Below are positions 4,041 through 24,243 of a stretch of DNA of 34,104 bases, in pieces; positions within the stretch are counted from its first letter, which is position 1; each line of letters begins with the position of its first letter. The stretch is from Patescibacteria group bacterium (GTDB lineage: Bacteria; Patescibacteriota; Minisyncoccia; Moranbacterales; UBA2206). A model generated the notes under the pieces. The model did no database searches. It had not been told where the DNA came from and worked only from the letters and a program-made list of their open reading frames with translations. The stretch spans positions 1 to 34,104 of the forward strand of contig JAUPKF010000011.1 of NCBI GenBank assembly GCA_030837625.1, read 5' to 3'. The position numbers and the translations under genes were made by a program.

Positions 4041-5168
4041 TTAAACTCTTACGTTTTTATAGGCTCGGAGCGTCATCTCGGCCATTTTTTTCCAACTGTA
4101 TTCCCTGATTTTTTCATAGCCTTTCTTAATCAGTTCCTCCCGCAATCGGCCACCTTTCAAAATCAACTTAATAGTTTCGACTATGGCATTTGTGTCTTTA
4201 GCGTCGAAATAATAAGCGCTGTCGCCCAAAACCTCTTTCATGCAAGGATGGTCGGAGGAAAAAACCGGTGTTCCTTTGGCCATCGCTTCCAATGGTGGCA
4301 AGCCGAAACCTTCGTAAAGCGAGGGGAAAATATACGCCAATGAATTGTGGAAAATCGTGTCCAACTCGTAGTCCGGAACGTAACCCGCGAAAATCACGCC
4401 GGGAACTTTTTTCTTTTCCGCGAACTCTTTAAGGCGCGCGTAAAAATAGTCTATCCGTCCGACTAAAACCAACTTTAAATCATTGTTAGATTTTTGCGCC
4501 TCTTTGAAAGCCAAAACCAGCCTCTCCAAATTCTTGTGCGGATAAGCGTTTCCGACATAAAGGATGTACGGTTTTATTATACCATATTTTAACAAAATCT
4601 CCCGGTCTTTTTCGGGGCTTAGCATGCAATAATCTTCACAAGCTTCATAGGTTACGATTACCTTCTCATTGGGCGCTTCCGGATAATTTTCCAGGATGTC
4701 TTTCTTGGTGAATTTGGAAACGGCAATCACGCGATTTGATCGACGAATGGCGGATTTTATCACGATTTTATACGCCAAAAACTTGAGCCGATACAAAACC
4801 GGACTGAGCGTCGAACTCCGCACAGTCGGAAAATGAATGAGAATAAGATCGTGAATGGTAACGATAAATTTCCCGCGGTAAAAAAGCGGAACATTGAAGT
4901 GAGGAAAGTGCACCAAATTAAGATTGCATTTCTTCAAAAGTCTGGGGAAAAATAGCTGCTCCTGCCAAGTATACCAATGGTAGTCAGCCAAAACTTTTTT
5001 GAAATTTTTGTTTTTCGGAATGTAATCGCCGAAATTTTGCTTTCGAAGGAATATGAAATACTCGTTGGTATCATCAACTTTTTCCAGGTTTTCTATCAAC
5101 TTTTGCGTGTAGCGCCCCAGCCCCTTGCCGATCGGGCCATAAAAACGGGCATCAATACCAATTATCAT
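4041..5168 (-). CDS. Glycosyltransferase family 4 (GT-B fold)
   Basis: A 375-residue GT4 glycosyltransferase of the kind that transfers sugars from nucleotide donors onto lipid-linked glycans at the cytoplasmic membrane face. The N-terminus (MIIGIDARFYGPIGKGLGRY) has the first beta strand and glycine-rich acceptor loop. The donor half starts near ILYVGNAYPHKNLERLV, and the EX7E motif is in YEGFGLPPLEAMAKGTPVFSS. The gene is 18 bp downstream of the next GT4 gene on the same strand, so the two are probably co-transcribed. A weak GAGGG lies upstream of the ATG. Donor and acceptor cannot be read from the sequence. Confidence 0.92.
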   Translation of the reverse strand: MIIGIDARFYGPIGKGLGRYTQKLIENLEKVDDTNEYFIFLRKQNFGDYIPKNKNFKKVLADYHWYTWQEQLFFPRLLKKCNLNLVHFPHFNVPLFYRGKFIVTIHDLILIHFPTVRSSTLSPVLYRLKFLAYKIVIKSAIRRSNRVIAVSKFTKKDILENYPEAPNEKVIVTYEACEDYCMLSPEKDREILLKYGIIKPYILYVGNAYPHKNLERLVLAFKEAQKSNNDLKLVLVGRIDYFYARLKEFAEKKKVPGVIFAGYVPDYELDTIFHNSLAYIFPSLYEGFGLPPLEAMAKGTPVFSSDHPCMKEVLGDSAYYFDAKDTNAIVETIKLILKGGRLREELIKKGYEKIREYSWKKMAEMTLRAYKNVRV

Positions 5169-5186
5169 AACGCCCTCATTATATCA

Positions 5187-6347
5187 CTATTCGGTCAAAA
5201 CCTCGAGCGTTTCTTTAGCCGCCTCTTGCCAGCTAAATTCTTCAGATCTGCTTTTTCCCTTTTCTACTAAATCGCTCTTAAACTCCCGATTTGTCAAGAT
5301 TTCTCTCATTGCCCGGTATATTTCTTCTGGCTTGTCGGGATCGATCATAACGGCGGCGTTCGCGGCCGTTTCCGGGAGAGAAGAATTGTTGGAGCAAACC
5401 ACTGGAACACCGCATTTCATCGCTTCGAGCGGCGGAAAGCCAAAACCTTCGAAATATGACGGGTAAACAAAAAGCGATGCCAGATTATATACAAATACCT
5501 TGTCTTTTTCGCAAACGGAGTTGACTATTTGAATGTTACTTTTGAACGGAGAATTTTCCAGCTCTTCATAAATTTTTCCGCTCGACCAGCCCCTTTCGCC
5601 AGCAATGACCAACTTGTATTTCAAAAGTTCTTCATTATTATTTTCCCGGGCGAACTTTTGCAGCGCGCCATAGGCCCGGATAACGCCGGCAATGTTTTTT
5701 CTGGGTTCGATTGTACCGAGATACAAAATAAATTTGTACGGCAAATCATACTTCTCTTTCGTCTTGATCAGTCCCTCTTCGTTCCTATCGACAATTTTAA
5801 ACTTTTCCGCCACCCCGTTCGGGATAACTTTTATTTTCTCCGGCTTTATTTTATAAAGAGATTGCAGATCGTTCTTAGTGGAATCGGACACCGCGATTAT
5901 TCGATCCGAGCTCCGGCAGATTCTTTTAGGATTGATAAAGATATGCCACAATCTTCTTTTCAAAGAAAAATTTTCCGAATAACGCTCAAAGGAAAGATCG
6001 TGGATAGTCGTAACCAGTTTCGTTTTCTTGCTGACGGCGCCGAAAATTATATTAGGCAAGAAAACGATATTACATCCGCCAACCAGCCGGTCGATTTTCG
6101 GCCAATTGAAATACCAGAACAAAGAATTAAGCAGTTTGTTAGGGAACTTGAACTTTTTCACTTTCACATTAGGAAATCTTTCCATCCAGGAAAAATAGAG
6201 TCCGGAAGCTTTCCAGGAATTAAAAAAAAGAACATACTCGTTCTTCTTGTCCAACTCAAAAAGAGTTGAAAGAATCTTTATGGTATATTCCTCCACTCCA
6301 GTCCTCCTTCCGTCCGCCAGACAGCGAATGTCGATACAGATACGCAT
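5187..6347 (-). CDS. Glycosyltransferase family 4 (GT-B fold)
   Basis: A 386-residue GT4 enzyme, paralogous in layout to the gene just downstream. It begins MRICIDIRCLADGRRTGVEE, with an acceptor-side glycine-rich loop; the donor domain begins at FILYLGTIEPRKNIAGVI, and the EX7E motif is in FEGFGFPPLEAMKCGVPVV. Its start is 3 bp after the stop codon of the Wzz-like gene, which supports one operon running from the Wzz-like gene through both transferases. Probable role is stepwise assembly of an exopolysaccharide repeat unit; exact sugars are unknown. Confidence 0.92.
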   Translation of the reverse strand: MRICIDIRCLADGRRTGVEEYTIKILSTLFELDKKNEYVLFFNSWKASGLYFSWMERFPNVKVKKFKFPNKLLNSLFWYFNWPKIDRLVGGCNIVFLPNIIFGAVSKKTKLVTTIHDLSFERYSENFSLKRRLWHIFINPKRICRSSDRIIAVSDSTKNDLQSLYKIKPEKIKVIPNGVAEKFKIVDRNEEGLIKTKEKYDLPYKFILYLGTIEPRKNIAGVIRAYGALQKFARENNNEELLKYKLVIAGERGWSSGKIYEELENSPFKSNIQIVNSVCEKDKVFVYNLASLFVYPSYFEGFGFPPLEAMKCGVPVVCSNNSSLPETAANAAVMIDPDKPEEIYRAMREILTNREFKSDLVEKGKSRSEEFSWQEAAKETLEVLTE

Positions 6348-6350
6348 CAG

Positions 6351-6956
6351 TTATTTAAGATAATGCTTCACCATTACAACCCAGAATCCCAAAAAAATCC
6401 CCACTGCCAGTGACGCCAGGAAAACCCACGGCGCGCTGTAGCTGTTTTTTACTATTACCGGACTTTGGGATATGATTTCAAACCAAACTTTTTCGTTCTG
6501 GTCTTTATTGAGAGCTTGGGTATTTTCAATGACAATTTTGCTAACCGCGTCGGAAATTTTTTGCGACGTTTCTTTTTTGGGCGAAGAAAACGAGACCGCC
6601 ACGATTTGAGAAGACATTTTTTCCGCCGTGATGCTTTTTCTCAATTGGCGAAGACTGAAATTGCTCGTATCTATTCCCGCTTTTTCATAAATATCCGCCG
6701 CCACGCGCGGACTTTTCAGCCATTCTACCACCGTTTCCGCGAATTTTTCGTCCGCCTGCAAACGGTAAAAATCGTCGAATTTATAATCGGGCGTTTCTTG
6801 CGCGCCGGAACGCGTAACGTTCAATGTCAAAGACGCGCTCCACGATTCCGGACGGAAAACAAAATAGGCGAAAACAGCGAAGACCGTCGCCAGAATTATT
6901 GCGATAAATAAGTTTAGATTTTTTTTGATTATTCGGAGATACTCTTTGAGTTCCAT
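6351..6956 (-). CDS. Wzz/YveK-like chain-length determinant protein
   Basis: A 201-residue protein with the two-membrane-helix layout of Wzz-type polysaccharide co-polymerases. A short cytoplasmic start (MELKEYLRIIKKNLNLF) leads to helix 1 at about 15-33, then an extracytoplasmic alpha/beta region, and helix 2 near 178-195 (VFLASLAVGIFLGFWVVMV). There is no C-terminal tyrosine-kinase domain. Such proteins control chain length or export of polysaccharide together with a polymerase. It is first in a tight cluster with two GT4 genes. Sequence conservation is low in this family, so the call rests on topology, length, the N-terminal pattern and context. Confidence 0.78.
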   Translation of the reverse strand: MELKEYLRIIKKNLNLFIAIILATVFAVFAYFVFRPESWSASLTLNVTRSGAQETPDYKFDDFYRLQADEKFAETVVEWLKSPRVAADIYEKAGIDTSNFSLRQLRKSITAEKMSSQIVAVSFSSPKKETSQKISDAVSKIVIENTQALNKDQNEKVWFEIISQSPVIVKNSYSAPWVFLASLAVGIFLGFWVVMVKHYLK

Positions 6957-6963
6957 AGATTGG

Positions 6964-7128
6964 AATTTCTAATTCACCTAATTACCTAATTCACCTAATA
7001 AAAATTAAAATTACCGAAGGTCAAATTTTAAAAAGTATTACTTATTTGGCATTTGAAATTTAATTTTGCTATTTGAAATTATTGAATTTTATTAGGTGAA
7101 TTAGAAATTAGACAATTAGGTGAATTTT
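6964..7128. repeat. AATTCACCT-type AT-rich repeat element, copy 1
   Basis: An intergenic AT-rich element bounded by inverted arms. The left arm (about 6964-7003) contains tandem near-9-mers of AATTCACCT; the right arm (about 7088-7128) contains the complementary AATTAGGTG motif. A 40-bp stretch of the left arm is identical to the copy beginning near 17079. The right arm overlaps the end of the downstream GT4 gene and supplies its last codons and TAA stop. Confidence 0.8.
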
Positions 7129-8225
7129 TTATGATTCTCCATCTCCTTCTCTACATATTCCCTTATCTTATCCTTAAAAACCTCTTTGTCAAATTTCAAT
7201 ACGGTTGAGCGGATGTATTCGGGATCGAATTCGCAACCGTCCATCTTTTTCACCGCTCCGATGATATCCTCCGGGGTCTGGCGTTCGAAAAATATTCCCG
7301 TCTTTCCCTCTTCCATATGCTCGGGAATATCCCCGCCACGATACGCGATCACCGGCCGCCCGGAAGCCATTGCTTCAATGGCGGTAATTCCGAAATCCTC
7401 TTCTTGAGGAAAGATAAACGCCCGACACTCCGCGTAATGCTTGAACAGCTCCCGCTCCGAAAGCCTGCCCATGAATTCAATGTTACCGCTATCCCCGGCT
7501 ATTTTTTTCAGCCGCGCCAGCTCAGGGCCTCGGCCGATGATCTTTAACTTCAATCCGGATTTCTTAAACGCTTCAATGGCGATATCAAAACGTTTGTAGG
7601 CCATCAGTCTTCCCACCAACAGAAAAAAATCGCCGGTCTTTTTACCGGCATAGAAATTTTCTAAATTCACCGGCGGATTAATTACGATCGAATCCCTTTT
7701 ATAATATTTTTTGATCCTTCTCGAAATGAACTTGGAATTAGCGACAATCTTATCCGGCCGATCGGCGCTGACTCTATCCCAAACCCGGATATAATTCATA
7801 AAAAAAGGCACTATTCTTTTTATAAAGCCGGGAAAATAAAAATCCTGGGTGTATTTTTGGCAATCATCCCAAGCAAAGCGCATCGGAGTATGCATATAGC
7901 AAATATGCAAAGTGTCCGGACCGGTGATGATTCCCTTGGCGAAGCTGGAAGAATCGGAAAGGACAATGTCATAGTTGGAAGAGTCAAAGCTTTCTATCGC
8001 CGACGGCATCAGAGGGGGGAATATTCGGTGTCTTGTTTTGGTAAAGGGGATTTTTTGCAAAAAAGATGTCCTGATTTTTTTGTCCGCGAACTTTTCGCGC
8101 ATTAGGTTTTTGTCGTAAACCAGGGTATGAATCGGCGCGTTTGGCCAAAGTTCGCAAAAACACTCCAGCACCCTTTCGGCTCCGCCGTATTGGACAAGAT
8201 AATCATGGACAAGCGCAATCTTCAT
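7116..8225 (-). CDS. Glycosyltransferase family 4 (GT-B fold)
   Basis: A 369-residue GT4 transferase beginning MKIALVHDYLVQYGGAERVL, a common start for mannosyl/rhamnosyl-type GT4 enzymes. The acceptor side includes HICYMHTPMRFAWD; the donor domain begins near DFFLLVGRLMAYKRFDIAI, and the catalytic EX7E-type motif is in QEEDFGITAIEAMASGRPV. The final residues (KKFT) and the stop codon come from the AATTCACCT repeat element. The start codon is 2 bp from an ATTCG palindromic repeat, so no Shine-Dalgarno sequence is available. Probable role is surface-polysaccharide assembly with the neighbouring WcaJ-like enzyme. Confidence 0.92.
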   Translation of the reverse strand: MKIALVHDYLVQYGGAERVLECFCELWPNAPIHTLVYDKNLMREKFADKKIRTSFLQKIPFTKTRHRIFPPLMPSAIESFDSSNYDIVLSDSSSFAKGIITGPDTLHICYMHTPMRFAWDDCQKYTQDFYFPGFIKRIVPFFMNYIRVWDRVSADRPDKIVANSKFISRRIKKYYKRDSIVINPPVNLENFYAGKKTGDFFLLVGRLMAYKRFDIAIEAFKKSGLKLKIIGRGPELARLKKIAGDSGNIEFMGRLSERELFKHYAECRAFIFPQEEDFGITAIEAMASGRPVIAYRGGDIPEHMEEGKTGIFFERQTPEDIIGAVKKMDGCEFDPEYIRSTVLKFDKEVFKDKIREYVEKEMENHKKFT

Positions 8226-8226
8226 A

Positions 8227-8357
8227 TCGATACGAATCTGCGAATGAATCCGAATCTACGAATTCACAAATAAAGTTACTCAGACAGGCACATTCGTAGT
8301 GCGCTATTCGGATGCTTTTATTCGTGAATTCGAATGCATTCGTTGATTCGAATCGCG
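8227..8357. repeat. ATTCG/CGAAT palindromic element, copy 1
   Basis: A long imperfect palindrome made of CGAAT/ATTCG units. Its left arm begins just 2 bp upstream of the GT4 start codon, and its right arm (ending in GTTGATTCGAATCG) reaches to 1 bp before the stop codon of the WcaJ-like gene. Related copies are at 9780-9868 and 23117-23215, and a half copy lies inside valS at 12016-12058. Confidence 0.85.
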
Positions 8358-8358
8358 A

Positions 8359-9774
8359 TTACAGGTTTCGCCTCTTCCGAAAAAGCACTCCAACTGTTTT
8401 CAGGCATATTTGGATGTCGAGCCAAAGCGACCAGTTTTCTATATAAAACAAATCCAGCTTGTATTCATCTTCAAAATCCAAATCCGACCGGCCAGACACT
8501 TGCGCCATTCCGGTAAGCCCCGGTTTTATGGTCAAAAGCCGCCGATGGTATTCCATGTACTTTTCCACTTCTCTTTTTTGATGCGGTCGCGGACCGACCA
8601 AGCTCATTGTCCCGAAAAGAGCATTGAAAAATTGCGGCAATTCGTCAATAGAATATTTTTCGATAAAATTCCCTACCCTGGTCTTTCGCGGATCTTTTTT
8701 GATTTTGTAGAGCGGACCCTTCCTCACGCTCTGATTTTTAATAAGCTCCTGCTCAAGCTTCAACGCTTCTTGCAATTTAGGATTATCTTTAGAAATACAA
8801 AACTCGTCTTTGAAATATCGGAACTTGTAAACAAAAAATTCTTTCCCGCCGCTACCTATCCGCTTGTTCTTGTAAATTATCGGCCCACAACTGTCCAGCT
8901 TGATGGCGACGGCCGTGGCAAGCATTATCGGAGAAGTGACGATTATTCCCAAAATGGAAGCGACAATATCAAAAACTCTTTTGGAAATTCTCCCCCAGCC
9001 GTCCAGAGGCGTACTCTTCACCTCAATAAGAGGTTGTCCCGAAAAAACTCCCAGCTCAAATTTCGACGTCTGCAGTGTGGTCGGAATGTATTTGTATTTA
9101 ACATTGTGGATAGCGCAATAGTCGATCAGCTTTTCCTGCTCGTCATCCGTCACCGACGGATTGCAAAGGATAATCTCATCGATTCCTTTTTCTTGCCTGA
9201 TTCCTTTTATCGTATGCACACTGGCTGTGTCGATCTGATCAATCACTTTATAGCCCAAATTTTTATTGTTTTTGATGATGGCAGAAATCGTGTTCATCCG
9301 ACCGTTTCTGCCAATCAAAAGCACCCGATGCACTCCGACGCCGCGGTTTCGCAGCAGCCATTTTTGAATAAGCTGGATCAGATAGCGAGCAAGGACGACA
9401 TAAAAAGTCGCCAATCCCCAGGCGGCTAAAATAATGAAACGGGAAGAAAACCATTCCCGCTTTAAAAATATAGCAACGATGATAATAACCAGTCCAATGG
9501 AAGTGGCTGTGAAAATCTTGAGCGTTTCTTTCCAGAATTTTCGAGTCGACCGGATATCATAGAGGCCCTCCAAAGCGTAAATTAGCAAAAAAAGCGGCGC
9601 CACCATCAGGGCGATTTTCAAATAGACATCGAAAGGGAAATTGTACAGCTTGGGTTTAAGCGCCAGAATTTCGGGAACATTTCTGATAGCAAAAGCCGAA
9701 ATGGCTGCCAAAATTATCATGGCAAAATCAACCGGTACCTGCAAAGCGCTGAAAAAAAGTTCCGATCTCTTCAT
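8359..9774 (-). CDS. Polyprenyl glycosylphosphotransferase (WcaJ/WbaP-type initiating sugar transferase)
   Basis: A 471-residue enzyme that transfers sugar-1-phosphate to undecaprenyl phosphate, the first committed step of exopolysaccharide repeat-unit synthesis. The N-terminal part has about four membrane helices (to about residue 130), then a CoA-binding-like Rossmann region (VLLIGRNGRMNTIS). The C-terminal catalytic domain starts at WGRISKRVFDIVASILG and holds KFRYF, YSIDELPQFFNALFG, MSLVGPRP and IKPGLTGMAQVSGRSDLDFE, all hallmarks of the bacterial sugar transferase family. The last residues come just before an ATTCG repeat, and another copy begins 6 bp upstream of the ATG. It fits as the initiator for the GT4/Wzz-like block. 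Confidence 0.95.
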   Translation of the reverse strand: MKRSELFFSALQVPVDFAMIILAAISAFAIRNVPEILALKPKLYNFPFDVYLKIALMVAPLFLLIYALEGLYDIRSTRKFWKETLKIFTATSIGLVIIIVAIFLKREWFSSRFIILAAWGLATFYVVLARYLIQLIQKWLLRNRGVGVHRVLLIGRNGRMNTISAIIKNNKNLGYKVIDQIDTASVHTIKGIRQEKGIDEIILCNPSVTDDEQEKLIDYCAIHNVKYKYIPTTLQTSKFELGVFSGQPLIEVKSTPLDGWGRISKRVFDIVASILGIIVTSPIMLATAVAIKLDSCGPIIYKNKRIGSGGKEFFVYKFRYFKDEFCISKDNPKLQEALKLEQELIKNQSVRKGPLYKIKKDPRKTRVGNFIEKYSIDELPQFFNALFGTMSLVGPRPHQKREVEKYMEYHRRLLTIKPGLTGMAQVSGRSDLDFEDEYKLDLFYIENWSLWLDIQICLKTVGVLFRKRRNL

Positions 9775-9779
9775 ATTAA

Positions 9780-9868
9780 CCGATACGAATTTACGAATTA
9801 TATTCGAATCTACGAATTCACGAATCCCCTATTCGTAGATTCGCATTCATTCGTTGATTCGAATCGGT
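9780..9868. repeat. ATTCG/CGAAT palindromic element, copy 2
   Basis: A compact copy of the same family as 8227-8357. Left arm CGATACGAAT..., right arm ending GTTGATTCGAATCG. It fills the gap between the 3' end of RNase P RNA and the start codon of the WcaJ-like gene (5-bp spacing from the ATG). Confidence 0.85.
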
Positions 9869-17342: not shown

Positions 17343-19025
17343 TTATTTTTCTTTAACTCCGATTAAGTATTTTTTTCTTTCCAACCACTCTCCCGCCACG
17401 AACCGCAAAATCGTCCGGGTGATGACAACCGCTGTGAACATCGAAACCAGAACTCCCAAAATCAAAGTAACGGCGAAACCTTTCACAAACCCTGTGCCCA
17501 TTTCCGTCAAAATCAAAGCGGTGATTATCGACGAAACGTTGCTGTCGCGAATCGACGTCCAGGCGCGTTTGAATCCTTCATCAATCGCCGCCAAAGCGTG
17601 CCGGCCATTTCTGATTTCTTCCTTGGTCCGCTCAAAAATCAAAATATTGGCATCCACCGCCATGCCGATGGAAAGAATGAAGCCGGCAATTCCGGAAAGA
17701 GTCAGGGTTATCTGCCAAGGAGAAAAAACGGAAAATTTGAAAAGGGTGACCATCAAGCCGGTATAGATAAGCAAAGTAAACGAAGCGATAAGTCCCAGAA
17801 AACGATAATACAAAATCATAAACGCGATAACCAGCAAAAGTCCGACTGCGCCCGCTTTCAAGCTTGTTTCCAATGATGCCTGACCGAGCGACGCCTCCAC
17901 GGATTGTTGGGAAATTAAAGTAATCGGCACCGGAAGAGCGCCTTCATTGAGCCTTTTGACCAAATCCTTGGCTTCTTCGATGCTGAAATCTCCGGTGATC
18001 ACCGCCTCTCCGTTGGTTATTTCCGCCTGCACCGTCGGAGCGCTTATTATCATGTCATCCAGATAAATTGCTACTCTTTTCCCGATATTCTTTTTAGTGA
18101 TTTCCGCGAAAAGCTTGGCTCCCTCGCCGTCAAATTTGAGCGACACTTGCGGTTCTGAAAGTCCTTGGTTTTGAAAAGCCACCTCGGCCGTCTCAAGATT
18201 CTTCCCGGTCAAGCCAGTGGAAACGAAGTTCATTTGCGGTTCCGGCTGGGTTTTCTTGGCAATCAAAATGTGCGCGCTTTTAAACTCTTGGCTGCCGTCT
18301 ATCTCTCGCACCTCTATTCTTTTTATAATGTGCCAGCCAAAAGTCGTCTCCACCAATTCCGGAAAAATTTGCCCATCACCAAGACCCTTGTCGAAAATTA
18401 CCGCTTCGTACTCCGGCACGAAGGATCCTTTTTTCTGAAAATCATATTCTCCGCCGTTATCTTTCGAGCCCGGATCTTCGCTATTATCTTTAGCTAACTG
18501 GGCGAAATCTTCCCCGGCCAGCGCTTTTTTCAAAATATCTTCCGCTTTCACTTTTGCCTGCGCGTTCATATCGTCCAAAATATCCTGCGGAATTTGCTGG
18601 GATTCATCAGTCCCGCCGCCCTCCTCCTTGAATTCCAAAAAGGGCGTTTCTTTGATCAAGCTTTTCGCCTCCTCGATATCCTTTACTCCCGCCAGCTCGA
18701 CTACCAGTCTTTGCTCCGAGCCGGATCTGGTCGTATAAATCACCGGCTCCGCCACGCCAAAAGCGTTCACCCGCCGCTCAATCACATCCTGCACCGCTTG
18801 CATCGCGTCGCCGACTTGATTGGATTCAACCTGACTCACATCCGCCCGGTACTCCAAATGAATACCGCCCTGCAAATCCAGTCCCAGGTTGATTTTCAGC
18901 TTATTCAGAGTATCATAAAGAAAAGGCGCCCGCACCGTCGCCTGCGGATAGGAAACCAGACCGACAAACACGGCCAAAATAATAATGAGAGTAAATTTTA
19001 TCTGAAGCTTCCTCTTGAGAATCAT
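17343..19025 (-). CDS. secD: Protein translocase subunit SecD with embedded parvulin-like region
   Basis: 560 residues. Helix 1 at about 10-27 is followed by INLGLDLQGGIHLEYR, the SecD signature, and the P1 head. The membrane part has LKAGAVGLLLVIAFMILYYR, IGMAVDANILIFERTKEEI and the final RND helices. Between about residues 150 and 258, within the periplasmic head, there is extra sequence resembling a PpiC/parvulin prolyl isomerase: KAEDILKKALAGEDFAQLAK, SEDPGSKDNGGEYDF, FVPEYEAVIFDKGLGDGQI, TFGWHIIKRIE and then SAHILIAKK. The HILI strand, normally first in parvulins, comes last here, suggesting circular permutation. SecD pulls translocating proteins outward, so a folding domain there is plausible. 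Core assignment is firm. Confidence 0.95.
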   Translation of the reverse strand: MILKRKLQIKFTLIIILAVFVGLVSYPQATVRAPFLYDTLNKLKINLGLDLQGGIHLEYRADVSQVESNQVGDAMQAVQDVIERRVNAFGVAEPVIYTTRSGSEQRLVVELAGVKDIEEAKSLIKETPFLEFKEEGGGTDESQQIPQDILDDMNAQAKVKAEDILKKALAGEDFAQLAKDNSEDPGSKDNGGEYDFQKKGSFVPEYEAVIFDKGLGDGQIFPELVETTFGWHIIKRIEVREIDGSQEFKSAHILIAKKTQPEPQMNFVSTGLTGKNLETAEVAFQNQGLSEPQVSLKFDGEGAKLFAEITKKNIGKRVAIYLDDMIISAPTVQAEITNGEAVITGDFSIEEAKDLVKRLNEGALPVPITLISQQSVEASLGQASLETSLKAGAVGLLLVIAFMILYYRFLGLIASFTLLIYTGLMVTLFKFSVFSPWQITLTLSGIAGFILSIGMAVDANILIFERTKEEIRNGRHALAAIDEGFKRAWTSIRDSNVSSIITALILTEMGTGFVKGFAVTLILGVLVSMFTAVVITRTILRFVAGEWLERKKYLIGVKEK

Positions 19026-19073: not shown

Positions 19074-19102
19074 TTGACGCTTCCGCGTTATGCTTATATA
19101 AT
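19074..19102 (+). promoter_or_regulatory. Consensus sigma70-type promoter for the PL7 lyase gene
   Basis: TTGACG (19074-19079) and TATAAT (19097-19102) are separated by exactly 17 bp. Transcription would start near 19109, leaving a leader of about 170 nt before the ATG at 19279. The leader holds a TTCGCC...GGCGAA pair (about 19157-19183) and a TGACTT...AAGTCA hairpin (about 19242-19261). No known riboswitch is recognised. Confidence 0.8.
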
Positions 19103-19278
19103 TTTCTTCACTTTGCGCGAAAAGCGGAGATTGCGCAAAAGTAGTAACATTTTCTTCGCCAAAATTTATGCCCGGCGGCGAAATTGCTTCCGGATAAGAG
19201 CATAAGCGAAAATTAATTTTTTAACACATTTTGTTTAGTAATGACTTGCTTTGCTAAGTCAAAATTTGATATCAAAAA

Positions 19279-20199
19279 ATGAGGAGACACCTGGTTAACT
19301 TTTCTTTCGCCGCCATCTCGACAACTCTTTTTCTTGGAGGATTGCTGGCGTACCAAAATTTTTCGAGCGCCGAAGAAAAAGCGGCGGCAAACAACTACTC
19401 CGCCAATAATGGCGACGTCATCCAACTTTCCGATGACGTATCCATCACCGTGAGTAAAAAAGTCCCCGCTGAAAATGTTCCGACCGAAACTCCGACCGAA
19501 ACCGCGCCTGTTGAACCCGCCAAAACTGCGGCCGATTGTCCGGCGGAAGTCGTCAATCTTGCCAACTGGAAACAAACCCTGCCCATCGGTAATTCCAACA
19601 AACCCACGGAAATTTTCCAGCCAGCCTTGGCCGATTATTCCCTTGATCCGTATTTCCGGGTAGACTCCGCCGGCGACAAAATAATTTGCCGGGCGCCCGT
19701 CAACGGAGTCACCACCAGCAATTCCGGCTATCCCCGCTCGGAACTGCGGGAAATGACCAATAATGGAAAAGACCAAGCCAGTTGGTCAACTTCTTCCGGC
19801 ACTCACACGATGTTTATCGAACAAGCCATCACCGCCGTGCCGGAAACTAAAAAACATATTGTCGCGGGACAGATTCATGGCTCGGACGACGACATTATCG
19901 CCATCCGTCTGGAAGACAAAAAACTTTTTGTCGATCTTAACGGGAAAGCCGGTCCGACGTTGGACGCCAACTACACCCTCGGAAAAAAATTCACCGTCAA
20001 ACTGGCAGCCGCCGACGGACAGATCAAAGTTTATTACAACGGTAACTCAACGCCTATCCACACACTGAAGAAGAAAGCTTCCGGATGCTATTTCAAAGCC
20101 GGCGCCTACACCCAGTCCAATTGTTCCAAAGAAAAAAATTGCTCCGACAGCAATTTCGGAGAAGTGGCCATCTACGACCTTTCCGTCAACCACAGCTAA
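19279..20199 (+). CDS. Secreted/anchored PL7 (alginate lyase 2) family polysaccharide lyase
   Basis: 306 residues. An N-terminal hydrophobic segment (about 8-25) acts as signal peptide or anchor, followed by a Pro/Thr/Glu-rich linker (to about 85). The catalytic jelly-roll domain (about 87-304) has all three PL7 signatures: RSELRE (153-158), QIHG (198-201) and YFKAGAYTQSN (271-281). PL7 enzymes cleave alginate by beta-elimination; the QIH variant is associated with guluronate-containing blocks, QVH with polymannuronate. It is the only plus-strand gene here, has its own promoter, and converges on the GT2-AlgG fusion gene. Likely role: trimming, releasing or degrading an alginate-like polymer. 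No Shine-Dalgarno sequence precedes the ATG. Confidence 0.92.
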   Translation: MRRHLVNFSFAAISTTLFLGGLLAYQNFSSAEEKAAANNYSANNGDVIQLSDDVSITVSKKVPAENVPTETPTETAPVEPAKTAADCPAEVVNLANWKQTLPIGNSNKPTEIFQPALADYSLDPYFRVDSAGDKIICRAPVNGVTTSNSGYPRSELREMTNNGKDQASWSTSSGTHTMFIEQAITAVPETKKHIVAGQIHGSDDDIIAIRLEDKKLFVDLNGKAGPTLDANYTLGKKFTVKLAAADGQIKVYYNGNSTPIHTLKKKASGCYFKAGAYTQSNCSKEKNCSDSNFGEVAIYDLSVNHS

Positions 20200-20240
20200 A
20201 TCCAGCCTCGGTTGACCAAAGTCGCGCAGGCTACAAACCC

Positions 20241-20270
20241 AAAAAGCATACTACCTGTAGTATGCTTTTT
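20241..20270. terminator. Bidirectional intrinsic terminator
   Basis: AAAAAGCATACTA (20241-20253) pairs perfectly with TAGTATGCTTTTT (20258-20270) around a CCTG loop. The A/T flanks serve both directions, so it ends the PL7 lyase gene and the convergent fusion gene. Confidence 0.9.
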
Positions 20271-20286
20271 GATATTTAAGCGCCTA

Positions 20287-23115
20287 TTATTGGATATTGT
20301 TCCCCGCCGATCCGTCGGTGATCCGGCCGTCTTTTTTGTTGTCGAACCTCTGGAAATTGTCAAAAAGCGAATTTTCTGAAGCGTTCTTGATAGTGATGCC
20401 GATCTCGTTTCCTTTCACCACATTTTTCACCAAGGTGTTTTTCGCGGATTGATCGTAGATGTATATTCCCCGGCTGTTATCGGAAAAGTCGTTTCCTCGG
20501 ACAAAATTTCCGGACGACCCGGCGTTCAGACGGACTCCTTTTTCATTTCCGCGCGCGTCATTTTCCAAAACAACATTGTTGTCGGAATCATAAACTACTA
20601 TCCCGTCCACATTGCCATATACTTCATTGCCTTGCACTAAATTATTATCAGACTGCCGGTCCAACATTATCCCGTGCAGGCGGTTGTCATACGATTCGTT
20701 TCCGATGATAGCGTTTTGAAAACAGCGGCGGGAAATAATGATGCCGTGATTGCCGTTCCGGTACGCTTTGTTTTCGGCAATCAGCATATTATTGGAATCG
20801 TCGTGCGGGTCTAAACCGTACTCGATATTTTCATAAGCTTCATTACTACGAATCAACATCCCCGTCACGCCGAAAGTATAGAGGCCAAAATAGTTGTGAT
20901 GAAACTTGTTGCCCGTCACCACACCGGTCAAAAGACGATCGCGAAAAGCATTATTGTTGTTTTTCCAAGAAATTCCGTACGATCCGCCGAAAGGTCCGCC
21001 GCGTTTCGGAAGACCGGCATAACCCAAGTAGGCGATTTCGGAATTGACCACGTCCATCCGGCCGCTGCTTTTAGCAGTAATATATGCCCGACCGCTGGCG
21101 TATTCCATATCCGGCGCGCCGGCTTTTTCGTCCCAAGAAGTTATCTTGGTATTTGAAATTAAAATATTTCCATTTTGCGATCTAACCCAGACAAAGCCGG
21201 TATCATCGCTTTTGAGTTTCATATATTTCACCTCGCTGCCGTCCAAAACCAAAGTTACGTCTTGTCCGACATACAAATTGGCCCGCAAAATCCACTCGCC
21301 CGCAGCCGTCTGTTCCAGCAAATTACGATTAGCCAAAGGCAAAGCCAGCCGGATGCGGGAAAGCGTCGCCACGCTGCCGCTTTGCCGCACGAAAATAGTG
21401 TTGCTCGCGGCTTCATAATTCACGCGCGAAGGTTTTCTAAACATGCTCGGCGCGACAATGTTTCTGCTAATCGGATTTCGAAGATCGGCTCTCGGAATGG
21501 CCAATTGCTGTCCGACACCAAGAGGAGTGAAATTTCCCAAGGCGGTTTTGTTGCTTCCTCGGAGAATTCTTCCCGTCGCGGGAATGTTGAATTTTTGCCG
21601 AAGGCCGGCCACCGTGTCGCCCGGCTTCACAACATAGTACCCGTACGGATCGCTCTGAGCCTTGCTTGCAAGCTCCGTTTCGATTTTTTCCAAATCAGCG
21701 TCGCTCATTTTCGGCAAATCGGGAGTCATAAAAGCGTAAAGATTCCTGATTCTTTCGGTTTCTTTGATTTCCGCGATTCTTTGCTTCTCCGCTTGCGCCG
21801 CGATTAAAACATTGTTTTTGTAATTGAATATCGCAAAAAATAAGATCAGAATCAAAGAACCAGTCGCGCCGTACGATAGCGCCCTTCTGAAAAAGTTGAC
21901 CGAAGCCAAGCGCGCCTTATCCCAGCGAGTGATCCATCCCTGCTCGTCAACAGTGACAAGGGCGTAAACTTTGACCACCGCCATCACGAATGTCATTAAG
22001 ATATAATCCGGCAGGATGAAAAAATCGCCCGGCTTTTCTTTGAGATGCGGGTATAATTTCACCGCGCGACTAACCAGCCACCAAAGAAGCATAGCGATAG
22101 CTACCGGCCAATGCCCCAAAGCCAGCGCGGTAGCGAAAAATACCGGCCCCAAGAGCAGAGCTAGCGGCGAAACAAATTTATCCAGCATATGCAAAGCCAG
22201 CATCTTGTGGCGTTTCCATATCCAGCCGGAAAAAAGAATTTTAGAATCGCTGCGAAGTCCGTTCCTTGTCCAACGCAACTTTTGTTTCATAAATTGGCCA
22301 ATCCTTGGGACGCCGGAAGTATAAACACGCACGTCCCGCAAATAGCGCGTTTTCCAACCATTCTGATGAACCAGCCGAGTCAAAGTTTTGTCGTCTCCGC
22401 TAATCATCGGGCTGCCCCAAAAAGTTTCGTTTACTAAAATATCCAATTTGTCGATAATAGCTTTCTTCCTATAAACCGCCGTCCGGCCAGAAAGACAAAG
22501 CAGAGCGTCGGAAACGGTCGCCAGAAAAGGATATTCCAAAAGATAGCGGTCATCCAGAAGAATTTTAAAAAGTTTTCGCGCCAATGTATCGGTTTTGAGA
22601 ACATCCTGCCTGGTCACCAAACCTCCAACTGCCGAATCGGCAAACGGCCCTGTAAGTTTATTTTTTATATTTGGGCTCCAAACCGTATCAGAATCGACCA
22701 ACGCCACAATTTCACTTTTGGACGCTCTTATCCCATCGGCCAACGCCGGACGTTTGCCAGGCTTTTCGGTTACGATAAGCTGGGCGCCGGAAAAATCTTT
22801 TTGAAATTCACGAAACAACGCAATATTTTTTTCGTCAGAATAATCTATGACCGCAATAATTTCATCCACGCCGTTTCTCTTCCAAGAATCAAGCGCCGGA
22901 CGGAAAAGATTCGGGTTTTCGTTATACACCGGCGTAACGACCGAGAGGGCGCCGCGATAGTCTCCTTTGGGAGCCAGATAATAGTTCGCTACGCCGCGGC
23001 GAAAAACCCACACACTCCACCGCCAAACTCCGATAATACCGAGAGGCAGGTAAAGCCAGAATATTTCTAAATTGTTTTGGATAACATTTGTTATTTGTTC
23101 AATATTCATTTTCAT
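20287..23115 (-). CDS. Fusion: Alg8-like GT2 mannuronan synthase + LysM + AlgG-like C5-epimerase
   Basis: 942 residues in three parts. (1) Residues about 15-435: membrane GT2 synthase with helices near 17-38, 312-332, 335-350, 366-388 and 415-432, and motifs KRPALADG, VDSDTVW (DXD at 141-143), ISGDDKT (240-242 as GDD) and QKLRW (278-282); ISGDDKT and the WRW segment resemble Alg8. (2) About 493-541: a LysM domain (YYVVKPGDTVAGLRQKFNIP). (3) About 570-942: right-handed beta helix resembling AlgG, with ITSWDEKAGAPDMEYASGRA, AYLGYAGLPKRGG, the catalytic motif YGLDPHDDSNN (DPHD at 769-772) and HGIIISRRC. It would polymerise GDP-mannuronate in the cytoplasm and epimerise it outside. A dehydrogenase gene precedes it across a repeat; a PL7 lyase converges on it. 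Start could be Met1 or Met3. Confidence 0.9.
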   Translation of the reverse strand: MKMNIEQITNVIQNNLEIFWLYLPLGIIGVWRWSVWVFRRGVANYYLAPKGDYRGALSVVTPVYNENPNLFRPALDSWKRNGVDEIIAVIDYSDEKNIALFREFQKDFSGAQLIVTEKPGKRPALADGIRASKSEIVALVDSDTVWSPNIKNKLTGPFADSAVGGLVTRQDVLKTDTLARKLFKILLDDRYLLEYPFLATVSDALLCLSGRTAVYRKKAIIDKLDILVNETFWGSPMISGDDKTLTRLVHQNGWKTRYLRDVRVYTSGVPRIGQFMKQKLRWTRNGLRSDSKILFSGWIWKRHKMLALHMLDKFVSPLALLLGPVFFATALALGHWPVAIAMLLWWLVSRAVKLYPHLKEKPGDFFILPDYILMTFVMAVVKVYALVTVDEQGWITRWDKARLASVNFFRRALSYGATGSLILILFFAIFNYKNNVLIAAQAEKQRIAEIKETERIRNLYAFMTPDLPKMSDADLEKIETELASKAQSDPYGYYVVKPGDTVAGLRQKFNIPATGRILRGSNKTALGNFTPLGVGQQLAIPRADLRNPISRNIVAPSMFRKPSRVNYEAASNTIFVRQSGSVATLSRIRLALPLANRNLLEQTAAGEWILRANLYVGQDVTLVLDGSEVKYMKLKSDDTGFVWVRSQNGNILISNTKITSWDEKAGAPDMEYASGRAYITAKSSGRMDVVNSEIAYLGYAGLPKRGGPFGGSYGISWKNNNNAFRDRLLTGVVTGNKFHHNYFGLYTFGVTGMLIRSNEAYENIEYGLDPHDDSNNMLIAENKAYRNGNHGIIISRRCFQNAIIGNESYDNRLHGIMLDRQSDNNLVQGNEVYGNVDGIVVYDSDNNVVLENDARGNEKGVRLNAGSSGNFVRGNDFSDNSRGIYIYDQSAKNTLVKNVVKGNEIGITIKNASENSLFDNFQRFDNKKDGRITDGSAGNNIQ

Positions 23116-23116
23116 A

Positions 23117-23215
23117 CCGATCCGAATCTGCGAATAAATGCGAATTCACGAATCTACGAACGAATACTTCCAGTTTTATTCGTAGATTCGGATGCATTCG
23201 TTGATTCGAATCGCG
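23117..23215. repeat. ATTCG/CGAAT palindromic element, copy 3
   Basis: A full copy of the family at 8227-8357 and 9780-9868, with a central TTCCAGTTTTATTCG segment and right end GTTGATTCGAATCGCG. It exactly fills the gap between the dehydrogenase stop codon (23216) and the fusion-gene start codon (23115). Confidence 0.87.
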
Positions 23216-24139
23216 CTAATATTCCAAGTACATCTTATCTTTCAAGTTCTCATTCACCCGAATGACTGCGTGAAGGAGCGGCATTTTCTTTTTGGCGTCG
23301 TCATTGGCCCAATTCATAAACGCCAAAGTGTCTTTGGGTAAACACGATCCGTCAAACGGTCCGAAATTTCTGATGCCGTAATCTTTATTCCAGGCAGCTT
23401 CGGCGCTTTCCATCACTGTTTTGAAAACTTTGTCCGCGTCCACGCCGGCCGATTCCGCCACCAAACGCATCTCGTTAAAGAACGAAATTTTTGCGGCGTT
23501 ATAAATATTGTGCACGTATTTCATTATCTCCGCTTCTTTGATCGTCATATGCACGATCGGCGCTTTGAACGGCTGGTACAGTTCTTCCAAAACTTCCGCC
23601 GTTTTGAAATCGATTGAGCCAACCACCACAATCCAGGGATGCATAAAATCTTCCTCCGCTTTGACTTCCCGCAAAAATTCCGGATTCATCGCCACCGAAA
23701 AACCCGTTCCTAATTTCTTTCCGGAATACTTTTCAATTATAGGAACAAACCGGTTTTCAGTCGTCCCGGGCGGAACCGTCGAGCGAATCACAATAATGGG
23801 TTTATTGGTATTGCTCGCCAGCGCTTTTCCCAAACTGGCAATCGCCGAATCAATGAAGCGAAAATCCAGCCGGTCGTTTATAGTCGGCGTCAAAACGTTC
23901 ACCAGATAAATATCGCGATCATGGGCGCACTCGGAGCCGATATTGCAAGCCGTCAGCCCGCTTTTATTAAGCGACTCGATGAGCATCTCGTTTATGTCCA
24001 CGAAAGTCACGTCATGTCCCAAAGACAAAAGACCCTTTCCGGCCGCTTTCCCCACAAACCCACTCCCGATGATAGTTATCTTTCGAGGATTGATTTTGGG
24101 CGTTTTTACCTCCCGACTGCTACTGGTGTTGTTTTCCAT
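23216..24139 (-). CDS. Short UDP-glucose/GDP-mannose 6-dehydrogenase family protein
   Basis: 307 residues. The NAD-binding Rossmann domain has GSGFVGKAAG (25-34), followed by VIRSTVPPGTT, MNPEFLREVKAEEDFMHP, the central-domain lysine segment NIYNAAKISFFNEM and the catalytic cysteine motif GSCLPKD (Cys266). These oxidise a nucleotide sugar's C6 to a uronate in two NAD-dependent steps. AlgD and UGD enzymes are about 390-440 residues; this chain stops about 40 residues after the catalytic cysteine and lacks the C-terminal nucleotide-sugar-binding domain. Position before the Alg8-AlgG fusion suggests it makes GDP-mannuronate, but UDP-glucose cannot be excluded. The missing domain may be supplied in trans, replaced, or the protein may be altered in function. 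No Shine-Dalgarno sequence. Confidence 0.88.
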   Translation of the reverse strand: MENNTSSSREVKTPKINPRKITIIGSGFVGKAAGKGLLSLGHDVTFVDINEMLIESLNKSGLTACNIGSECAHDRDIYLVNVLTPTINDRLDFRFIDSAIASLGKALASNTNKPIIVIRSTVPPGTTENRFVPIIEKYSGKKLGTGFSVAMNPEFLREVKAEEDFMHPWIVVVGSIDFKTAEVLEELYQPFKAPIVHMTIKEAEIMKYVHNIYNAAKISFFNEMRLVAESAGVDADKVFKTVMESAEAAWNKDYGIRNFGPFDGSCLPKDTLAFMNWANDDAKKKMPLLHAVIRVNENLKDKMYLEY

Positions 24140-24197: not shown

Positions 24198-24243
24198 TTT
24201 TAAAAATAAAACGAGGGAGAAGCTTCTGTTAAAACTTCTCCCT
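24198..24243 (-). terminator. Intrinsic terminator after the receiver-like gene
   Basis: On the minus strand AGGGAGAAG and CTTCTCCCT (24235-24243 and 24214-24222) form a 9-bp stem, followed by CGTTTTATTTTT (24201-24212). It lies between the small two-gene operon and the dehydrogenase gene, which starts 59 bp further on. Confidence 0.82.

Follow-up and report, generated by a model that had tools for sequence, protein, structure and literature searches.

Three adjoining genes in a Moranbacterales genome raise the question of whether a bacterium of the Candidate Phyla Radiation (CPR) encodes a compact system for making and tailoring alginate or a related polymer. They lie within a stretch of 34,104 nucleotides, here called the window, from a CPR genome of 0.97 Mb that is 98.5% complete. 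Production of an alginate-like gel polymer has until now been demonstrated only for brown seaweeds and two proteobacterial genera. Bacterial secretion of alginate is documented for Pseudomonas and Azotobacter alone (PMC3815931), and in a survey covering 1758 genomes the alginate operons belonged mostly to Pseudomonas (PMC7112194). Our literature search on alginate synthesis in CPR bacteria retrieved no paper.

The original prediction, made from the window alone, described a compact three-gene module comprising counterparts of AlgD, Alg8 fused to AlgG, and AlgL. Open reading frame and profile searches confirmed the three genes themselves, which are arranged as follows.

19074..19102, forward strand: promoter-like site (TTGACG-17-TATAAT) 5' of the PL7 gene, with 11 of 12 consensus matches by consensus scan alone

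19279..20199, forward strand: gene for a PL7 alginate lyase of 306 aa (PF08787, 5.1e-42)

20241..20270, no strand assigned: hairpin separating the PL7 gene from the convergent fusion gene, a probable two-way terminator (from folding)

20287..23115, reverse strand: gene for the synthase-epimerase fusion, 942 aa (profile searches, orthologue alignment)

23216..24139, reverse strand: gene for an AlgD-like dehydrogenase without its C-terminal domain, 307 aa (TIGR03026)

24214..24243, reverse strand: terminator hairpin of the gene upstream of the dehydrogenase (13-pair stem and T run, z -5.1)

Position 19074, where the region was originally taken to start, is the first base of the promoter-like site. 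The hairpin at 20241-20270 (-17.3 kcal/mol, z -9.7) has A-rich sequence to one side and T-rich sequence to the other, and together with the terminator at 24214-24243 it indicates that the dehydrogenase and fusion genes form their own transcription unit and the PL7 gene another. Since the PL7 gene is convergent with the other two, it lies outside their operon; the three genes are side by side, as predicted, but they do not form a single unit. A dispersed palindromic repeat around TTCGTAGATTCG occurs in the window at 8233-8350, 9786-9861 and 23123-23208 and also on contig C18 of the window's genome (G000:C18, L025), with 12 matches against 0.2 expected. The copy between the dehydrogenase and fusion genes folds strongly (z -4.95); it is missing in G120, a genome of the same genus, where the two genes touch. 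Elsewhere in the window, a peptidyl-prolyl isomerase domain of parvulin type (PF13616, 6.8e-21) interrupts SecD (17343-19025, reverse strand) between the SecD_1st and P1 head parts, and a second polysaccharide cluster (4041-9774, reverse strand) encodes three GT4 glycosyltransferases, a Wzz-like protein and a bacterial sugar transferase.

The fusion protein runs from a GT2 domain (PF13641, residues 57-285) through hydrophobic helices to about residue 440, then through a weak LysM-like stretch to a beta-helix that begins at about residue 585. Its parts map to the window as listed below.

22216..22983, reverse strand: GT2 catalytic domain, about residues 45-300, with DSDT, LSGRT, SGDDK and QxxRW motifs (PF13641, 7.8e-23; tree; motifs)

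21796..22206, reverse strand: membrane part, about residues 304-440, with a gating-loop-like GWITRW at 393-398 (hydropathy, model helices, alignment to WGTR of hyaluronan synthase)

21481..21657, reverse strand: weak LysM-like stretch, about residues 487-545 (PF01476, E 0.0041)

20290..21363, reverse strand: AlgG-like right-handed beta-helix, residues 585-942 (NF038177, PDB AlgG 4ozy, Foldseek 4nk6)

20728..20820, reverse strand: epimerase active site Y766, D769-P770-H771-D772 and R796 (YGxDPHD in orthologues; AlgG roles from PMC4444821)

The LysM assignment was rejected, as PF01476 scores 17.5 bits, under its cut-off of 20.9. That the fusion is an assembly artefact is ruled out by 12 orthologous sequences, 42-86% identical to the one in the window, which align end to end; the only split copy, from genome G130, carries an ambiguous base at its break and may reflect an assembly flaw. 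The structure model of the fusion has a mean pLDDT of 85.5 and a pTM of 0.53, and because of the latter value it does not set the relative placement of the two halves. A viral origin was also rejected: the fusion is without a relative among the viral contigs searched, and phages gave partial matches only. Its top viral match is FirrV-1-A15 of Feldmannia irregularis virus, a virus of a brown alga, and we counted this match in favor of alginate. Separately, Pseudomonas phage Y5 (OQ572407.1, 70560-71339) has a gene for a helix resembling AlgG (29.8% identity, E 1e-24), which may be used on host alginate.

The synthase half could belong either with Alg8 or with hyaluronan synthase (HAS) and NodC. 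The Alg8 references were sequences from Rhizobium megaplasmids, assigned by operon context and not by biochemistry. In the maximum-likelihood tree, which included four rhizobial Alg8 sequences and none from Pseudomonas, the GT2 domain joins Alg8 with support of 98/98, in agreement with the predicted Alg8-like synthase; holding it with HAS/NodC costs 71 log units (p-AU 4.9e-10). Because the Alg8 branch is long (4.6), a point that we counted against alginate, motif states were used beside the tree. The fusion and Alg8 both carry GR (SGRT, TGRM) behind the catalytic Cys/Thr strand and both have a G[DE]DK motif; in HAS and NodC, GP stands in place of the SGR of the fusion, and G[DE]DR in place of its G[DE]DK. 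A literature search on residue K297 of Alg8 found nothing. The HAS/NodC assignment had been raised by pairwise scores, in which NodC and a Lactococcus GT2 come closer to the GT2 domain than rhizobial Alg8 does and which we counted against alginate, and by PDB searches, in which hyaluronan synthase is the best match of this half; it was rejected on the tree and the motif states. HAS and NodC have in common with the fusion the GT2 catalytic motifs, the membrane layout and the WxTR gating-loop motif, and they provide the best solved fold for the synthase half, but they fall outside the group formed by the fusion and Alg8 and carry no attached epimerase. As a side observation, a Lactococcus plasmid (L056) encodes a nucleotide-sugar dehydrogenase adjoining a HAS/NodC-like GT2, possibly another polysaccharide pair.

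In hyaluronan synthase the WGTR gating loop is cytoplasmic, and GWITRW of the fusion aligns with this motif. With the gating loop in the cytoplasm, the last hydrophobic helix (about residues 411-432) would lead outward, and the epimerase half would be located outside the cell membrane.

For the helix half, the best named model is AlgG (NF038177, 8.6e-42), with a score of 143.4 bits for the fusion against the cut-off of 700 for this full-length model, which is thus not reached; we counted this against alginate. AlgG is likewise the best PDB sequence match of the helix (4ozy, 2e-29) and the top Foldseek match of the fusion model (4nk6, E 2.7e-17, TMt 0.70). In AlgG the His of DPHD acts as base, a Tyr-bound water acts as acid and an Arg shields the carboxylate (PMC4444821). 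The YGxDPHD motif is kept in 15 of 15 fusion orthologues, and residue 796, Arg in the window protein, is Arg or Lys in 14 of the 15 and missing in G438. Judged by these residues, the helix keeps the AlgG active site, which bears out the AlgG-like epimerase of the prediction.

The fusion is found in 13 of the 131 genomes of the order, spread over several families, and in a 14th genome (G003) a contig end truncates it; two further fusions (G372 and G438) come from another family among 380 genomes of the phylum. The dehydrogenase gene lies directly upstream of the fusion gene in all 13 loci of the order and in G372; this is not the case in G438. PL7 is encoded in 8 of the 131 genomes, two of them with a second copy, and all eight carry the fusion (hypergeometric P 2e-9, or 4e-7 by genus, kinship being ignored in both). 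Among the 380 phylum genomes, PL7 exceeds its cut-off in the window's own genome (G000) only. The PL7 gene is adjacent to or near the fusion (within about 4 kb) in only five loci and unlinked to it in three carrier genomes. Of the expectation that the trio would be kept together, the fixed dehydrogenase-fusion pair and the restriction of PL7 to fusion genomes therefore held, while general physical linkage of PL7 did not. The alginate-type module in a CPR genome, as originally proposed, came through on the three points chosen beforehand as capable of overturning it, namely the place of the GT2 domain in the tree, the active site of the helix and the conservation of the genes.

In relatives, the place beside the fusion is taken by a secreted beta-propeller or beta-helix protein. 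These are encoded in 7 and 8 of the 131 genomes, respectively, and both are confined to fusion carriers (P values uncorrected for kinship); the window's own genome and G120 have neither and encode PL7 instead. Because the dehydrogenase-fusion pair is constant and its neighbors vary, we describe the system as a fixed two-gene core with variable secreted partners. The beta-propeller partner (L029, L030, L031, L032, L033, L039, L067, L069) has weak BNR_4/BNR_2 matches and none in a PDB sequence search, and it is a candidate for a new lyase or hydrolase family. The beta-helix partner (L034-L038, L030, L031) is NosD/DUF1565-like, with highly conserved KNGEGIYIGTAPEQ and GNECVDIKE motifs.

The gene upstream of the fusion had been proposed as the AlgD equivalent. 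Its product is an AlgD-like nucleotide-sugar dehydrogenase that passes TIGR03026 (215 bits, cut-off 189.8), with the catalytic Cys266 in GSCLPKD; the orthologues all keep this Cys unchanged, and likewise the helical-domain Lys and Asn and the Rossmann motif. The closest PDB sequence is AlgD (1mfz, 2.5e-48), which is also the first Foldseek match (TMq 0.86, 2.0 A, followed by UGD at 0.71) of a model folded from an alignment without rhizobial AlgD rows. In the tree it groups with AlgD (88/91), and the test does not reject placing it with UGD (p 0.09). As an AlgD it is incomplete: the protein encoded in the window, like every orthologue, ends at the point where members of the AlgD/UGD family continue into their C-terminal domain, at about 291-340 aa in all 13 members from the order and in G372. 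The AlgD active site is formed by two chains, the N-terminal domain of one and the C-terminal domain of the other (PMC10740432), and includes Lys324 (PMC10619135). The region holding this lysine is missing from the short dehydrogenase, and we counted its absence against alginate. Given the loss of a domain needed for the AlgD site from every one of these 14 proteins, the short protein may, though less likely than not, be no NDP-sugar dehydrogenase and oxidize a different substrate, or it may need a second protein in order to act; the invariant catalytic residues and Rossmann motif and the match to the AlgD fold argue against this. Such a role would concern one part of the system and is compatible with an alginate-type reading of the whole. 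Two other NDP-sugar dehydrogenases are encoded in the window's genome, one TuaD-like (a full-length UGD) and one WecC-like, and no second AlgD-like one was found there.

The lyase belongs to PL7 (PF08787 144.6 bits, cut-off 29.7) and so differs from AlgL, whose counterpart it had been taken to be; PL5, the AlgL family (PF05426), has no match in the window's genome. Its RSELRE, QIH and YFKAGAYTQ sequences represent the catalytic Arg, Gln-x-His and Tyr motifs (the last of YxKxGxYxQ type). The best PDB sequence matches are AlgAT5 (3.8e-69) and the polyguluronate lyase 1uai (ALY-1 type; 1.4e-65), with which the protein shares the whole catalytic domain, all three motifs and the QIH type. The QIH type and the nearness to 1uai suggest a G-cleaving enzyme. 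It differs from these lyases in that its gene, in a CPR genome, neighbors that of a polymer synthase, and in having a hydrophobic N-terminus (signal peptide or anchor) and a linker ahead of the catalytic domain, which starts at residue 92. A second PL7 gene of the same genome (G000:C3:52528-53187, L078) is on the same contig as the precursor genes described next.

The window's genome encodes a GMP_PMI of AlgA type (TIGR01479, 480 bits, cut-off 373) and, 3.8 kb from it, a phosphomannomutase/phosphoglucomutase, which together cover the AlgA and AlgC activities of GDP-mannose supply. Of 16 fusion carriers, 9 have a GMP_PMI that exceeds the cut-off, against 3 of 11 non-carriers; it has no match in G120 and G438 and a weak partial one in the single-contig G372. 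We counted this patchiness against alginate. AlgK, AlgE and AlgX were not found among the window genes scanned, and no PilZ domain (Alg44) was found in the genome. The absence of AlgK, AlgE and the acetylation set from the window had been put down to the lack of an outer membrane; such a lack does not account for the genome-wide absence of Alg44/PilZ. Acetylation by an MBOAT protein was rejected as part of the system, since such proteins are present in only 3 of 16 carriers, the window's genome included (on another contig).

Compared with the alginate operon of Pseudomonas and Azotobacter (algD-alg8-alg44-algKEGXLIJF-algA), the Moranbacteria locus has a related synthase, C5-epimerase and dehydrogenase and a nearby lyase, and GMP_PMI and phosphomannomutase are present as well, here elsewhere in the genome. 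The differences are that synthase and epimerase form a single polypeptide, that Alg44/PilZ is absent, that PL7 replaces the PL5 AlgL, that the dehydrogenase is short, and that an acetylation enzyme is not conserved. The rhizobial alg-type operons (Rhizobium etli 8C-3 pRsp8C3c and others) likewise hold AlgD, Alg8 and AlgG homologues together, along with a PilZ Alg44, a ManC-type gene (in one type), a Sel1-repeat gene and AlgX. Their Alg44, Sel1-repeat (AlgK-like) protein, AlgX and full-length AlgD are all unlike the Moranbacteria locus, and their AlgG is fused to a long N-terminal part and not to the synthase. A PL7 gene lies roughly 13 kb from the rhizobial reference operons, and we counted this in favor of alginate. 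Since a complete AlgD, Alg44, AlgL and a score above the AlgG model cut-off were looked for and not found, we did not file the Moranbacteria system as a member of the alg system; most likely it works like that system without being a classical alg operon.

We consider it probable that these genes encode a minimal system of alginate type, suited to a cell that has no outer membrane, with an epimerase tethered to the synthase and a secreted PL7. On the inner side of the membrane, the GT2 domain would polymerize an activated uronic acid (probably mannuronate) and extrude the chain through its own membrane helices. Outside the membrane, the AlgG-like helix of the same polypeptide would epimerize the emerging chain at C5 (M to G). 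The short dehydrogenase, of AlgD descent and encoded immediately upstream, may take part in making the uronate, and the PL7, expressed from its own promoter, may trim or release the polymer. A more specific version, which we hold tentatively and as rather unlikely, is a one-protein polymerase-epimerase free of Alg44/c-di-GMP control, paired with a new kind of minimal AlgD that, having given up the C-terminal half of its active site, oxidizes its sugar by another route, for instance with the donor held by the synthase or the sugar bound to lipid or polymer.

The product could instead be a different polyuronate made from UDP-sugars, for instance glucuronan or a mixed uronate, which the helix would epimerize and the PL7 would cut. 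The full-length UGD of the genome, the patchy GMP_PMI, and the pairwise and PDB affinities of the GT2 domain to NodC, the Lactococcus GT2 and hyaluronan synthase are in line with this; in addition, actinobacterial GT2s branch beside the fusion and Alg8, one of them, from Curtobacterium, adjoining a UDP-glucose/GDP-mannose dehydrogenase. We regard it as unlikely, since the tree rejects the HAS/NodC grouping, GDDK and SGR/TGR are common with Alg8, and the partner dehydrogenase is nearer to AlgD than to UGD. The PL7 relatives include 7nde, a PL7-like enzyme able to cut glucuronan, which we counted against alginate, but the lyase scores 237 bits with alginate/polyguluronate lyases and 49 with 7nde. 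Two unrelated functions, an exopolysaccharide synthase-epimerase and a PL7 attacking the alginate of others for food or access, would agree with the convergent PL7 gene, its own promoter-like site, its unlinked copies in three carriers and the second copy in this genome, but this is very improbable given that PL7 occurs in fusion carriers only (8 of 8 in the order, and above cut-off in 0 of 379 other phylum genomes), a confinement that scavenging would not predict, and lies within about 4 kb of the fusion in five loci.

If the minimal alginate-type system is real, it would represent the least machinery able to make and pattern a uronate polymer, found in ultra-small CPR cells, and these cells would possess their own matrix or attachment polymer. 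A single chain that both polymerizes and epimerizes would be useful for producing alginates of set composition. How the short, AlgD-like dehydrogenase may work without its C-terminal domain is a further question open to experiment.
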